Assembly (NCBI GenBank): GCA_016874795.1
Contig: VGTG01000044.1
Coordinates: 1 to 37,947, forward strand
Reading direction: 5' to 3'
DNA from: Deltaproteobacteria bacterium
GTDB taxonomy: Bacteria > Desulfobacterota > Binatia > UBA12015
DNA length: 37,947 nucleotides
Part shown: in pieces, positions 1 through 4,759 of the stretch
How positions within the stretch are numbered: position 1 is the stretch's first letter
How the letters are laid out: every line of letters begins with the position of its first letter
Program-made: the position numbers and the translations under genes
The notes under the pieces: model-generated
Seen by the model: the letters and a program-made list of their open reading frames with translations, nothing else
Database searches by the model: none
Told to the model about the DNA's origin: nothing

Positions 1-939
1 GAGCCGGTCGTGCCCTCCGAGGCGATCGACTCCGCGGCCGAGCTGACGCGCTCCGTGATCGAAGACCGCGGCTTGCGCTTCACCGTCTCGCTCCCGCCCG
101 AGCCGATCCTGCTCGAAGCCGACGCGGTGCGGATCGCGCAGGTCTTCTCGAACCTCCTGAACAACGCGGCGAAGTACACGCCGAAGGGCGGCTCGGTCTG
201 GGTCACCGGTGAGCGGCAGGGCGACGAGGCAATCGTCGTCGTGCGGGACACCGGCGTCGGGCTCGTTCCCGATCTCCTGCCGCACGTCTTCGATCTCTTC
301 GTGCAGGGCACCGCTTCGCTCGATCGCACGACGGGCGGGCTCGGCATCGGCTTGACGCTCGTGCGCTCGCTGGTCGAGCTGCACGGAGGCCGCGTCGAGG
401 CGCGGAGCGCGGGGGTCGGGAAGGGCAGCGAGTTCGTCGTGCGTCTTCCCGCGCTCGCCGCCGCGCGTGCCTCCCCGCGTCCGGCGGTGCCGCCGGGCAC
501 GCGACCCGGCGCTCCCGGGCCGCTTCGCATCCTGGTCGTCGAGGACAACCAGGACACCGCCGAGATGCTCGGCGCGATGTTCAAGATGAGCGGGCACGAG
601 GTCGAGCTCGCCGCGGACGGCTTCACCGCGCTGCGGACGGCCGAGTCCTTCCGTCCCGCAGTCGTCGTGTCCGACCTCGGCCTTCCCGGAATGGACGGCT
701 ACGAGCTCGCGCGGCGCATCCGGCAACAGGAGCGCTCGGGCGACCTCGTGCTCGTCGCGCTCTCCGGCTACGGGCGCGAAGAGGACAGGCTGAAGACGCG
801 CGAGGCCGGCTTCGACCACCACCTCGTGAAGCCCGCGGATGTCGACAAGATCCTCGGGATCGTCGCGGAGCTCGCCGCGCGCGAGGCCGACCGCCAAGGC
901 ACCGCCGTGCGGCGCACCGCCGCAGTCGTCGACCGCTGA
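1..939 (+). CDS. Hybrid sensor histidine kinase/response regulator, C-terminal part
   Basis: The reading frame is open to the first base, so the N-terminal sensor and phospho-acceptor domains lie outside the window. What remains is a HATPase_c domain with an N box (NLLNNAAKYTPKGG), a G1 box (DTGVGL) and a G2 box (GLGIGL). A Pro/Ala-rich linker follows, then a complete receiver domain. The receiver has the acidic pair in VVEDNQDT, a phospho-acceptor Asp in SDLGLPGMDGYE (codon near 673) and the conserved Lys in VKPAD. The gene encodes a hybrid kinase in which phosphate would pass from the kinase core to the attached receiver. It converges on the minus-strand kinase gene downstream, with only 3 nt between the stops. 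The ligand and partner cannot be read from this fragment. The GTG at 10 is internal, not the true start. Confidence 0.9.
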   Translation, partial: EPVVPSEAIDSAAELTRSVIEDRGLRFTVSLPPEPILLEADAVRIAQVFSNLLNNAAKYTPKGGSVWVTGERQGDEAIVVVRDTGVGLVPDLLPHVFDLFVQGTASLDRTTGGLGIGLTLVRSLVELHGGRVEARSAGVGKGSEFVVRLPALAAARASPRPAVPPGTRPGAPGPLRILVVEDNQDTAEMLGAMFKMSGHEVELAADGFTALRTAESFRPAVVVSDLGLPGMDGYELARRIRQQERSGDLVLVALSGYGREEDRLKTREAGFDHHLVKPADVDKILGIVAELAAREADRQGTAVRRTAAVVDR

Positions 940-942
940 GCC

Positions 943-2427
943 CTACAGCGGCAGGTCGAGCCGGACGCGCGTCCCGCGCCCCGGCGCGCTCGTCACGTCG
1001 AGCTTGCCACCGTGGCGGTCGACGACGCCGTGCACGATCGCCATGCCGAGCCCGGTGCCGCGCTGCTTCGTCGTGAAGAAGAGGTCCGCCATGCGAGCGG
1101 CGGTCTTCTCGTCCATGCCGACGCCGGTGTCCGCGACGGCGATCTCGACGCCGGTCGGGGTCCGCTTCGCGACGACCTTCAGCGTGCCGCCTTCGGGCCT
1201 CGCGTCGAGCGCGTTCTGCAGGAGGTTGGCGATCGCGCGGCGGATCTCCGTCGCGTCGAGTGGCAGCGGCTCGCGGACGCCGTCCAGATCGAGCTCGACG
1301 CGGACGCTCTGCGTGGCGCAGCGCTCCGCGAGCAGGGCGAGGCACTCCTGCACGAGCGGCTCGAGCGCGACGGGCTCGCGGCGGAGCTCGCGCTGGCTCC
1401 CGAACGCGAGGATGTCGCCGACGAGACCCGCGAGATGGTCGATCGTGCGCTCCATCTTCCCGGTCACGTCGGTGCCCGCCTCGTCGCCGAGCTGCTGCAG
1501 GCGCTCGGACAGGAGGTAGAGCTGGAGCTTCAGCCCGTTCAGCGGGTTGTTGAGATCATGCGCGACCTGCGTCGCGACGCGGCCGAGGGCCGCGAGCGCG
1601 TCGTTCCCGAGCTGTGAGAGCGCCTGCGCGTTCTTCAGCGCGACGGCCGCCTGTCCCGCGAAGAGCGCCAGCGTCTCGAGGTCGTCGTCCGTCGGTGCGA
1701 CCGTGGTGCGCGCTTCCGCGACGAGCGCGCCGTGCGAGACGCCTTCGACGAGAAGCGGCGCTGCGAGGACGTCACGATTCTCCTCGCGAAGCCGGAGCGG
1801 CTCGGTCGCGTCGACCGCGCGCCGCGCCGCGGACTGCACCGCGGATTGCACGGCGCTCGGCGCGGAGGCCGGAAGACCGCCGATCCCGACGCTCGCACGT
1901 TGCACGAGGTTCCCCGCTTGCGTCAGGAAGACGTGCACGTGGCCGCTCTCGGTCGCCTCGAGCGTCGCCTGTGCGACGGCGCGGAGCGTCCGCTCGATCG
2001 CGCTCGACGAAGCGAGCGTCTCGCCAAGGCTCCGGAGCAGCGTCCGATCGCGCGCCCAGCGGCGCGCCGCGATCGCGCGATCGAGCTTCCGCTGCAGCTC
2101 CGGCGTGTCGAAGGGCTTCGTCACGTAGTCGAACGCGCCCCAGCGGATCGCCTGGACGGCCGTGTCGATCGAGCCGTGCGCCGTCATGATGAGAATCGGA
2201 AGCCGCGGCTGGAGCGTCAGCGCCGCGCGCGCGAGCGAGATGCCGTCCATCGTCTCCATGCGGAGATCGAAGATCGCGACGTCGAACGGACGCCGCGAGA
2301 GCTCGTCGAGCGCCGCCGCAGGATCGCCGCACGCTGTGACCTCGAAGCCCATCGCGTCGAGGCGCATCGCCAGGACCTCGAGGATCGCTGCGTCGTCGTC
2401 GACGGCAAGGAGCTGGTGACGGCTCAA
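943..2427 (-). CDS. Receiver-GAF-histidine kinase, output protein of a Qse/Glr-like operon
   Basis: A 494-residue cytoplasmic protein in an unusual order. An N-terminal receiver spans about 4-120, with acidic residues at D10-D12, phospho-acceptor D54 and K104. A GAF-like domain covers about 130-265. A histidine kinase core follows with the phospho-acceptor His in VAHDLNNP (H290), an N box (NLLQNALDA), a G1 box (DTGVGM) and a G2 box (GTGLGMAIV). There are no membrane segments. The start is a TTG whose last two bases begin the upstream lipoprotein's stop (TTGA overlap); starts further upstream would run through that gene. As the last gene of the operon it takes the place of the sigma-54 activator in E. 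coli qseEGF. Being kinase-tipped, it probably relays phosphate to another protein instead of binding DNA; that is an inference. Confidence 0.85.
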   Translation of the reverse strand: MSRHQLLAVDDDAAILEVLAMRLDAMGFEVTACGDPAAALDELSRRPFDVAIFDLRMETMDGISLARAALTLQPRLPILIMTAHGSIDTAVQAIRWGAFDYVTKPFDTPELQRKLDRAIAARRWARDRTLLRSLGETLASSSAIERTLRAVAQATLEATESGHVHVFLTQAGNLVQRASVGIGGLPASAPSAVQSAVQSAARRAVDATEPLRLREENRDVLAAPLLVEGVSHGALVAEARTTVAPTDDDLETLALFAGQAAVALKNAQALSQLGNDALAALGRVATQVAHDLNNPLNGLKLQLYLLSERLQQLGDEAGTDVTGKMERTIDHLAGLVGDILAFGSQRELRREPVALEPLVQECLALLAERCATQSVRVELDLDGVREPLPLDATEIRRAIANLLQNALDARPEGGTLKVVAKRTPTGVEIAVADTGVGMDEKTAARMADLFFTTKQRGTGLGMAIVHGVVDRHGGKLDVTSAPGRGTRVRLDLPL

Positions 2428-2930
2428 GGCGCGACCTCCGGCCCGAGGTCGACCTCGCGCAGCCGGTCGATGGCCGCCTCGAGCGATCGCAGGCGGTCGA
2501 CGTCGGTCGCGAGCTTCGCGCCCTGGACCTGGCAGCTCGCGAGGTTGCGCAGCGCGGAACGCCACGCCTCCGCCTCCGCGATGCGCGGGTTTCCCGACTT
2601 GCCGTACTTCGCGATCAGCCGCTCGAAGTTGATCAGCGCGAGGCGGTAGTCGCGAAGCGGGCTCCTCGGAGCGAGCTGCAGCATCGCCATGCCCCAGCGC
2701 GCGTCGAACGCGGCGGGATCGTCGGGATGCTCGCGGAGCACGTCGAGATAGAGGTCGCGCGCTTTCTCCGGCTTCCCGTCGGCGGCCAGCTGCTGCGCGC
2801 GGAGGACGAGCGTCTGCGACCCGGTCGGATGAGGCGGTCCCGAAGGTCGCTTCGCGGCGCAGCCCGCGAGCAGCGCGAGCAGCGCGAGCGACGCGAGCGG
2901 GAGGAGAAGCACTACCCCGGCGCGCTTCAC
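2424..2930 (-). CDS. Small lipoprotein with TPR-like helices, positional equivalent of QseG
   Basis: A 168-residue protein beginning with MKRAG and a hydrophobic stretch ending in the lipobox L21-A-G-C24, so it should be exported and lipidated on Cys24. The mature part is helical, with TPR-like character (LVLRAQQLAADGKPEKARDLY) in its first half and a probable coiled coil near the end (DRLRSLEAAIDRLREV). The GTG start overlaps the kinase stop (GTGA), and its own stop overlaps the next start (TTGA), so the three genes are translationally coupled. In enterobacteria QseG is an outer-membrane lipoprotein encoded between the QseE/GlrK kinase and its regulator, and it modulates the kinase. The same position and size class suggest a similar role here, but I see no diagnostic sequence identity. 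Confidence 0.8.
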   Translation of the reverse strand: MKRAGVVLLLPLASLALLALLAGCAAKRPSGPPHPTGSQTLVLRAQQLAADGKPEKARDLYLDVLREHPDDPAAFDARWGMAMLQLAPRSPLRDYRLALINFERLIAKYGKSGNPRIAEAEAWRSALRNLASCQVQGAKLATDVDRLRSLEAAIDRLREVDLGPEVAP

Positions 2931-4315
2931 TTCGACTCCCCCGGCGGCAGCCGGACGGTGAACTGCGTCCCGTGGCCCGGCTCCGACTCGCCGGTGACGG
3001 TTCCGCCATGGGCCTCGACGATGCTCTTGACGATCGCGAGACCGAGGCCCGAGCCGCCCTTCGCGCCCGGCGCCTGCCAGTACCGATCGAACACGTGCGC
3101 CAGCGCTTCGGGGGGAATGCCCGGCCCGGCGTCGTGCACGGCGATCTCGATCGCGCCGTTCTCGCGGAGGACGCGCACGCCGACGCGGCCGCCCTCGCTG
3201 CTGTGCTGGATCGCGTTCCCGACGAGGTTCACGAAGATCTGCGTGAGCTGCTCGTCGTCTCCGTCGACGACGACCTTCGTGCCGGCAGCCGCTTCGAGCA
3301 CGAGACCGCGCGCCTCGGCCTGCGGGCGGAGGCCGTCGACCGCTTCGCGCATCACCGTCGCGAGACCGACCGGACGACGCTCGATGTTCTGCAGCTTGGC
3401 GCGCAGGCGCGAGATCGAGAGGATCCGGTCGACGAGCCGCAGGAGGCGCTCGCAGCTCGAAGCGATGATCCCGAGAAGGCGCTCCTGCTTCGGCTCGATC
3501 GGTCCCGCGAGGCCGTCGCGCAGGAGGCTCGTCGCCTCGCGCACGGCGGTGAGCGGCGAGCGGAACTCGTGCGAGACGTGCGCGAAGAACTCCTCCTTCG
3601 AGTGGTCGATCTCCTTCAAGCGCTCGGCCATGCTCTGGAACGCGACCGCGACTTCGCCGATCTCGTCGCGGCGCCGGATCGGCAGCGTTCCGGCGAACGT
3701 GCCGTCGGCGATCTGGCCGGCCGCGAGCGACAAGCGGCGCAGGTCGCGCGTCAATCGGATCGCGAGCCAGCCCGAGCTCACGAGCGCTGCCAGGACGCCC
3801 GCGCAGAGCCCGAACAGCACAGCGTTCCACGTGCGTCGCTCGAGCCTCGCGGATTCGGTCTTGACGCGATCGAGCGTCGCGTACGTCTTCTCCCGGAACC
3901 GCTCGAGAGCGCGCGACACCGCGGCTCCGGCCTCCGCGGAGGCGTCGGTCCCGAACGCGTCCACGTAGGCGAGGAAGGCCGTCGTGACCACGCGGTGGAT
4001 GGGGGCCTCGCCCTTGGAGAGACGCGCCCCGAGGAGCCGGAGATCGTCGTCGAACTCGCCGGCGAGCTTTCCCCAGGCGCGGAGGTAGCCCGGGTCGCGG
4101 TCCAGGAGCGCGAACTTCCTTTCGTATCCGAGCAGGTCCCGCATCCGCCGCGCCAGGGAGGCCTCGAGACGGATCGCGGGCACCGAGTCCTCCGCGATCG
4201 TCTGGTTGACGCGCACGAGGCGCTCGACCGCGAGCAGGCTCCAGACCGCGATCGCCGTCAGGGCGACGATGCAGAGCGAGTTCGCGAGGAACAGCTTGGT
4301 CGAGAGACGCGTCAA
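2927..4315 (-). CDS. Membrane sensor histidine kinase, GlrK/QseE-like
   Basis: A 462-residue sensor kinase. The first membrane helix lies at about 8-30, a helical periplasmic domain at about 31-162 and the second membrane helix at about 163-187. A HAMP domain covers about 188-240, then HisKA with phospho-acceptor H249 (HVSHEFRSPL). The ATPase domain has an N box (NLVGNAIQHS), a G1 box (DAGPGIP) and a G2 box (GSGLGLAIV). The region after the His (AVREATSLLRDGLAGPIEP) closely resembles the E. coli GlrK/QseE sequence as I remember it. The periplasmic helical domain has the four-helix look of that family. It is the first gene of a minus-strand operon with the lipoprotein and the receiver-kinase, overlapping the next gene by 4 nt. 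The signal is unknown; GlrK relatives respond to cell-envelope conditions. Confidence 0.9.
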   Translation of the reverse strand: MTRLSTKLFLANSLCIVALTAIAVWSLLAVERLVRVNQTIAEDSVPAIRLEASLARRMRDLLGYERKFALLDRDPGYLRAWGKLAGEFDDDLRLLGARLSKGEAPIHRVVTTAFLAYVDAFGTDASAEAGAAVSRALERFREKTYATLDRVKTESARLERRTWNAVLFGLCAGVLAALVSSGWLAIRLTRDLRRLSLAAGQIADGTFAGTLPIRRRDEIGEVAVAFQSMAERLKEIDHSKEEFFAHVSHEFRSPLTAVREATSLLRDGLAGPIEPKQERLLGIIASSCERLLRLVDRILSISRLRAKLQNIERRPVGLATVMREAVDGLRPQAEARGLVLEAAAGTKVVVDGDDEQLTQIFVNLVGNAIQHSSEGGRVGVRVLRENGAIEIAVHDAGPGIPPEALAHVFDRYWQAPGAKGGSGLGLAIVKSIVEAHGGTVTGESEPGHGTQFTVRLPPGESK

Positions 4316-4403: not shown

Positions 4404-4454
4404 ATGGCTCCGGTACCGGTCGCGGGGCCGGTGAGACCGGGGAGAAGCCGATGA
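4404..4454 (+). CDS. Possible 16-residue leader peptide
   Basis: A short frame reading MAPVPVAGPVRPGRSR. It starts at an ATG 4 nt after a strong ribosome-binding site (AAGGAG, 4394-4399), and its TGA overlaps the ATG of the following secreted-protein gene (ATGA). That geometry is typical of translational coupling or a leader peptide. The peptide is rich in Pro, Val and Arg and has no recognisable domain. The alternative is chance, because Shine-Dalgarno-like purine runs and stop-free short frames are common at this GC content. Confidence 0.3.
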   Translation: MAPVPVAGPVRPGRSR

Positions 4455-4759
4455 AGCCGAGTACACGCTTCCGGAGAGCATCCGCACTCGCCCTTGCTCT
4501 CGTCGCGGCTGCAATGCTGTCGGCCGTAGCAACGGCGGCCTTTGCGATGGAGCCGGCGGGAGTCGCCGAGCCGGACGGCGGCACGACCAGCGAAGTGCAG
4601 CCCGTCACGGCGAAAGCGTCTGCCATCTCGTTCGGCGCGTGCCATTTCCAGGACACGCCGCCGCACGACCCGCACCGCCGGCTCGAATGCGCGCCGGGCG
4701 AGGTCGTGGTCGCCGTGTACGAGCAGGGCGTGCGCTGCTGCTCTCTCGAATTGCGCTGA
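4451..4759 (+). CDS. Small secreted protein with four cysteines
   Basis: A 102-residue protein with an Arg-rich n-region, a long Ala/Leu hydrophobic core and an AFA cleavage site at about residue 32, so it is probably exported. The mature part has four Cys: one in FGACHFQ, one in LECAPGE and an adjacent pair in VRCCSLE near the end. These could form two disulfides or bind a metal. It is preceded by a GGGGAGAAG ribosome-binding site and diverges from the sensor-kinase operon across a 135-nt intergenic region. I do not recognise the family. Its position next to a Qse-like envelope sensor suggests, but does not show, an envelope role. Confidence 0.6.
   Translation: MKPSTRFRRASALALALVAAAMLSAVATAAFAMEPAGVAEPDGGTTSEVQPVTAKASAISFGACHFQDTPPHDPHRRLECAPGEVVVAVYEQGVRCCSLELR

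Follow-up and report, generated by a model that had tools for sequence, protein, structure and literature searches.

The best-described counterparts of the locus reported here are two. One is QseE-QseG-QseF (GlrK-QseG-GlrR; PMC12691602), in which a sensor kinase, a lipoprotein and a sigma-54 activator (REC-AAA+-HTH) are encoded in that order. That account reports that the C-terminal tail of QseG activates QseE in Escherichia coli, that QseG L209, E213, R214, R219 and K220 contact QseE R70, Q74, V77, L78, D80 and other residues, and that QseG L209D, QseG R219A or QseE R70A abolishes binding; it reports the system in no other groups than Gammaproteobacteria, Betaproteobacteria and Acidithiobacillia. 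The other is LvrA-LvrB-LvrC of Leptospira. There, according to PMC13269768, an upstream kinase feeds LvrB, a kinase with an N-terminal receiver whose phosphorylation is the input and frees the catalytic domains, and LvrB phosphorylates a downstream partner; Rec-controlled kinases are described as a frequent class of little-known mechanism. Here we describe three minus-strand genes in a 37,947-nucleotide stretch (the window) of contig VGTG01000044.1 from a Deltaproteobacteria bacterium of the class Binatia, encoding a membrane sensor histidine kinase (HK), a lipoprotein (LP) and a receiver-GAF-histidine kinase (RGK). Our reading is that an envelope-sensing operon of QseEGF-like layout has here been turned, through RGK, into a longer phosphorelay, and we give it a probability of roughly 55%.

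The gene order is that of QseEGF, and the 4-nt overlaps that the sequence-only reading had placed at both joins were found as claimed (Table 1). Pfam identified HAMP (residues 183-235), HisKA and HATPase_c (352-458) in HK, and after the receiver (Response_reg) of the third protein it found GAF, HisKA and HATPase_c, confirming that this gene encodes a kinase and differs in this from the sigma-54 activator of QseEGF. The predicted catalytic residues are present (H249 in HK; D54, H290 and N405 in RGK). With an N-terminal receiver, DHp and CA in one chain and its phospho-acceptor residues intact, RGK has the layout of a Rec-controlled kinase; Myxococcus AsgA and AsgD also carry a receiver followed by a kinase in one protein. 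The likeness to Lvr lies in an upstream kinase feeding a kinase with an N-terminal receiver, but LvrB has the layout Rec-DHp-CA, with no GAF domain, and acts on an anti-sigma factor, LvrC, and a lipoprotein is not among the Lvr parts described in the accessible text.

RGK is rare but its setting is constant. A profile search (E <= 1e-90) recovered it in 5/148 genomes of the class, namely the window genome and four of another family (f8). Of the 13 further genomes in the window's family (f1), none gave a match; an even draw across the phylum found it in 2/395 genomes, both known already. At all five class loci (the window, L019, L020, L021 and L023) the genes stand in the order HK-LP-RGK and overlap by 4 nt at each join, so the same order does recur in related genomes and the lipoprotein is conserved beside such kinases. 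The four other RGKs are 50-53% identical to that of the window, and no change is seen among the five at D54, T82, K104, H290 or N405 or in the ATPase motifs. Among named genomes, the best five of 80 loci all belonged to Candidatus Rokubacteria (L059-L063; at least five records), with RGK at 44-51% identity. An rpoB tree of 18 rows shows the window's class as one clade (100), separate from Rokubacteria, which join Methylomirabilota (88). Two phyla thus carry the operon, with a patchy distribution.

Where the receiver of RGK came from is suggested by related operons of the class. The LP profile matched 27/148 class genomes, and we examined 25 LP loci without RGK, one further match being left out. 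In 19 of these the order is HK-LP-GlrR, the third gene coding for a sigma-54 activator of the GlrR type; where this gene is largely complete, its product and E. coli GlrR share 41-47% identity. Two of the remaining six loci end at contig edges (L042 and L055) and four have no GlrR-type gene (L038, L048, L057 and L058). These sister operons share with the RGK operon the LP family, the kinase group and the receiver grouping, and differ in the third gene. Between the receivers of RGK and E. coli GlrR, identity is 39% over 135 aa. When 85 receivers were compared in a tree, which took in 14 of 57 other AAA receivers (chosen at random), all 12 other receiver-kinases and 24 of 40 receivers of sigma-54 loci, the 10 RGK receivers formed one clade (99). 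A more careful tree of 80, with five long rows left out, placed them together with the class's 18 GlrR receivers (85/80), and did so too when E. coli GlrR was added (98/69). Judged from these sequences, RGK most likely kept a GlrR-type receiver served by HK, while a kinase replaced the activator part. Because this receiver is GlrR-like and stands in GlrR's place in the sister operons, HK is the expected phosphate donor.

In all five listed Rokubacteria records a gene for a sigma-54 response regulator (RR4) directly follows RGK, overlapping it by 4 nt in L059-L062 and by 8 nt in L063. These regulators are 61-69% identical to RR4 of L059, and that of L060 has Response_reg, Sigma54_activat and HTH_8 domains. 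HK and LP lie upstream in four of the five (L060-L063), although the contig of L063 ends within HK, and the LP profile matches L060-L062 weakly (E 1e-8 to 2e-4). RGK thus looks like an inserted middle step, and the earlier statement that the output has become another kinase holds for the third gene but is incomplete, since a sigma-54 regulator comes next in these records. By BLAST the kinase part of RGK matched E. coli ZraS (six) or AtoS (two) best in all eight readable rows, those of L062 and L063 being excluded. ZraS and AtoS serve NtrC-type regulators, which fits RR4 as a target.

For HK, we compared rows from 8/10 RGK loci and 20/25 other LP loci. A tree of 42 cores placed all 28 LP-linked HKs together with GlrK (SH-aLRT 94), apart from seven other E. 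coli kinases and six own-genome kinases (from 6/8 loci); the GlrK branch is long, and the cores of L042 and L046 are identical. HK cores of RGK operons formed one clade (98), and GlrK was the best BLAST match for 15 of the 20 other LP-linked HKs. The sensor is predicted to be a periplasmic four-helix bundle, as in QseE: its AlphaFold model has long helices (mean pLDDT 81.7), and the best Foldseek match was NarQ (E 1.4e-3; moderate TM-score, 0.52), whose fold class is also assigned to the QseE sensor in PMC12691602. QseE chains were not among the 50 Foldseek matches listed, which does not exclude a QseE-like fold. The position of QseE R70 is Arg in 27/28 LP-linked HKs, and that of D80 is Asp in 27/28.

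LP itself matches TPR proteins and BamD in structure (AlphaFold model, mean pLDDT 86.8). Pfam gave weak TPR matches and nothing else, and an NCBIfam scan at E <= 0.01 gave a BamD-type match alone, whereas E. coli QseG scores 359 bits on its own model. TPR proteins fill the structure-search lists; QseG chains were not among the 50 matches listed, which does not exclude them. An alignment of 29 LPs (all nine from RGK loci having LP and 20 of the 25 others) was read against E. coli residues that agree with the numbering of PMC12691602, QseG being offset by 11 from the lipidated Cys as mapped in this analysis. The best place in QseG for the LP tail profile was exactly the QseG tail, and the LP tails have an acidic residue at the E213 position in 29/29, a basic one at R219 in 22/29 and hydrophobic residues at R214 in 26/29. 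As in QseEGF, the acidic residue would face an Arg, which 27/28 LP-linked kinases keep and the window's does not. LP and QseG share a common plan, a globular helical part followed by a long C-terminal helix, and not a detectable sequence family. Evidence that LP works like QseG is partial; with moderate confidence, and with less for the window copy, we take LP to be an analogue of QseG. The helix between the TPR part and the tail varies much in length across the 29 LPs (whole proteins of 111 to about 200 aa), and LP reach across the periplasm may vary with it.

Three of the loci without a GlrR-type gene, all in genomes of family f2, present a different arrangement: an LP homologue follows a shorter sensor protein without an ATPase (L048 764-1480, L057 266-1432 and L058 1951-2871; 239, 389 and 307 aa). 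These sensors share the Arg motif EVRYAGKF or EARYAGRF, and that of L057 matches HisKA weakly and has Thr-Asp-Glu in place of the expected Ser-His-Glu. In L048 and L057 a kinase end stands apart, upstream. Lipoprotein and sensor seem to occur here as an input module that has no kinase of its own.

In the phosphorelay that we propose, LP would use its long C-terminal helix to contact the HK four-helix bundle in the periplasm and would tune HK autophosphorylation at H249. Phosphate would then pass to D54 of the RGK receiver, a putative GlrR descendant of the type normally served by the LP-linked kinase family. The phosphorylated receiver, with GAF as a second input, would switch the RGK kinase (H290) by analogy with LvrB, and RGK would in turn phosphorylate a sigma-54 (NtrC-type) regulator, which in Rokubacteria would be the product of the next gene, RR4. 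In the window genome such a regulator may be encoded elsewhere or may have been replaced by another. The longer relay foreseen in the sequence-only reading is the natural one given GlrR as third gene in 19/25 sister loci and a GlrR-like RGK receiver, and overall the sequence-only reading is partly supported.

Several observations pull the other way. We observe gene order, domains, conservation, the series of operon types, the grouping of receivers and kinases and intact catalytic residues, and we infer every phosphotransfer step, the role of LP as activator and the identity of the output. RR4 adjoins RGK at none of the five class loci, where 0.9 kb past RGK was available in the window and 4.0-5.3 kb in the others; in the window, the contig begins at base 1 and a convergent ORF occupies 1-939 past RGK, which leaves no regulator directly after it. 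Nor has the window genome a clear RR4 ortholog: of its 24 strong sigma-54 activator matches, 15 carry a receiver, and these are 37-41% identical to RR4 of L063 with none standing out, although the assembly is 96.7% complete and absence is not proven by this. In L059, RGK-RR4 has no HK-LP upstream and an unrelated ORF stands there instead, with some unread bases between, so that HK-LP is either absent or misassembled. A grouping of RGK with RR4 receivers costs 18.6 log units and is not rejected (p-AU 0.17).

The likeness to QseE and QseG has weak points of the same kind. Kinship of HK with GlrK, as first proposed, has support from the tree and is not favoured by BLAST: the window HK scores 129 bits against E. 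coli BaeS, 112 against PhoR and 110 against GlrK, and BaeS is best for seven of eight RGK-operon HKs and GlrK for one. The lipoprotein does occupy the QseG position, but homology to QseG was negative by BLAST, by NCBIfam NF007997 and by hhalign (probability 0.5), its N-terminal part being TPR. The tail-profile score is non-significant (among 44 E. coli proteins QseG ranked 6th, and as high a score was reached in 410 of 5000 shuffles), and Leu occupies the position of the essential QseG L209 in 11/29 LPs. Finally, the window HK alone has Gly at the R70 position, with Arg at R73 kept, and the window LP has Ala and Pro at the R219 and K220 positions; the LP-HK contact may therefore be changed in this copy.

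These difficulties leave room for other explanations. RGK might be a brake, a phosphate sink or an integrator driven mainly by its GAF domain, with HK and RGK acting on shared or separate regulators and the receiver draining phosphate from HK. Phosphate sinks are known in two-component signalling, GAF would give RGK an input of its own, and no regulator adjoins RGK in the window or the four sister loci. We nevertheless consider this unlikely: the kinase motifs of RGK are all intact and invariant, and its translational coupling to RR4 in five of five listed Rokubacteria records fits an active kinase with a target. It is also conceivable that HK and RGK are distinct kinases whose signals meet at one regulator or several, the operon serving only to co-express them. 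The two pairs are separable, as RGK-RR4 without HK-LP in L059 and HK-LP without RGK in 19/25 loci indicate, and a receiver-kinase near a sigma-54 regulator occurs elsewhere in the window genome (L184). Against this stands the GlrR-like receiver of RGK, exactly in GlrR's place in the sister operons, which points to HK as donor, and we hold the explanation to be quite unlikely. As for a chance neighbourhood of two-component genes without functional link, such genes abound in the window genome (51 HisKA matches, besides the sigma-54 activators counted above), but an order with overlaps conserved in two phyla is more than chance neighbourhood, and makes this very improbable indeed.

A more detailed history of the phosphorelay is possible, if doubtful. 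Starting from HK-LP-GlrR, the receiver would have been kept while AAA+-HTH was swapped for a GAF-kinase, giving RGK, and RR4 would have been added as fourth gene, giving a four-protein relay driven by an outer-membrane lipoprotein in Rokubacteria. In a few class members RR4 would have been lost or displaced and the relay re-plugged to another regulator, the window copy having changed on both sides of the LP-HK contact.

Potential output regulators were also considered. A sigma-54 regulator at L190 2646-4028 (G025 C54), in a genome that has HK-LP-RGK, is 47% identical to RR4 of L063 and has no kinase match within 6.5 kb; by its sequence it is a candidate displaced RR4. A regulator 1.4 kb downstream of RGK in L021 was rejected as RR4, being a different NtrC-type protein. 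In the window genome, the DNA available around the receiver-bearing sigma-54 regulators L178, L181, L186 and L187 gave no kinase match; L181 and L187 lie near contig ends. At L184 1082-3979 (contig C10 of the window genome) a frame of 429 aa, which has a receiver and matches HisKA, adjoins a sigma-54 regulator, a further case of a receiver-kinase beside an NtrC-type regulator. The sigma-54 promoter pattern gave no signal in the window (5 matches with <=2 mismatches vs 5.7 expected).

The separate parts were already known. In the open-licence literature searched we found neither their combination, its TPR lipoprotein nor the series HK-LP-GlrR, HK-LP-RGK-RR4 and HK-LP-RGK, and no publication in which a lipoprotein and kinase of this kind are joined by a REC-GAF-kinase. 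The series suggests chain lengthening by insertion of an extra kinase step. If the phosphorelay reading is right, a simple two-component pathway has become a longer relay with its envelope sensor kept and all stages present in living genomes, lipoprotein-driven kinase sensing extends past the groups given in PMC12691602 and to a TPR-type lipoprotein, and an accessory lipoprotein is paired with a Rec-controlled kinase.

Table 1. Features of the HK-LP-RGK operon (window coordinates; aa, residues of the protein concerned)
Feature	Position	Strand	Remarks
HK, membrane sensor kinase, 462 aa, TTG start	2927..4315	-	two transmembrane helices around four-helix-bundle sensor (predicted), HAMP, HisKA, HATPase_c
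LP, lipoprotein, 168 aa, GTG start	2424..2930	-	lipobox LLAGC, Cys24; TPR-like helices 37-109; one long C-terminal helix 115-161
RGK, receiver-GAF-HisKA-HATPase_c protein, 494 aa, TTG start	943..2427	-	
HK/LP overlap, 4 nt, GTGA	2927..2930	-	
LP/RGK overlap, 4 nt, TTGA	2424..2427	-	
HK HisKA, aa 239-306, H249	3398..3601	-	Pfam
RGK receiver, aa 7-115, D54, GlrR-like	2083..2409	-	Pfam and receiver trees
RGK GAF, aa 144-264	1636..1998	-	Pfam
RGK HisKA, aa 281-344, H290	1396..1587	-	Pfam
RGK HATPase_c, aa 391-494	946..1257	-	Pfam
LP C-terminal tail, IDRLREVDLGPEVAP	2427..2471	-	aligned with QseE-binding tail of QseG; acidic D161 and E165 kept, without basic end

Composition gave no sign of recent transfer of the operon, with GC of 0.715 vs 0.704 for the window and third-position GC of 0.89-0.92 vs 0.80-0.94 in six other ORFs. 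The convergent ORF past RGK (window 1-939, plus strand) encodes a kinase end and a receiver and is cut by the contig start. On the other side, about 135 nt from HK, lies a divergent small ORF (window 4451-4759, plus strand) with a signal-peptide-like start.

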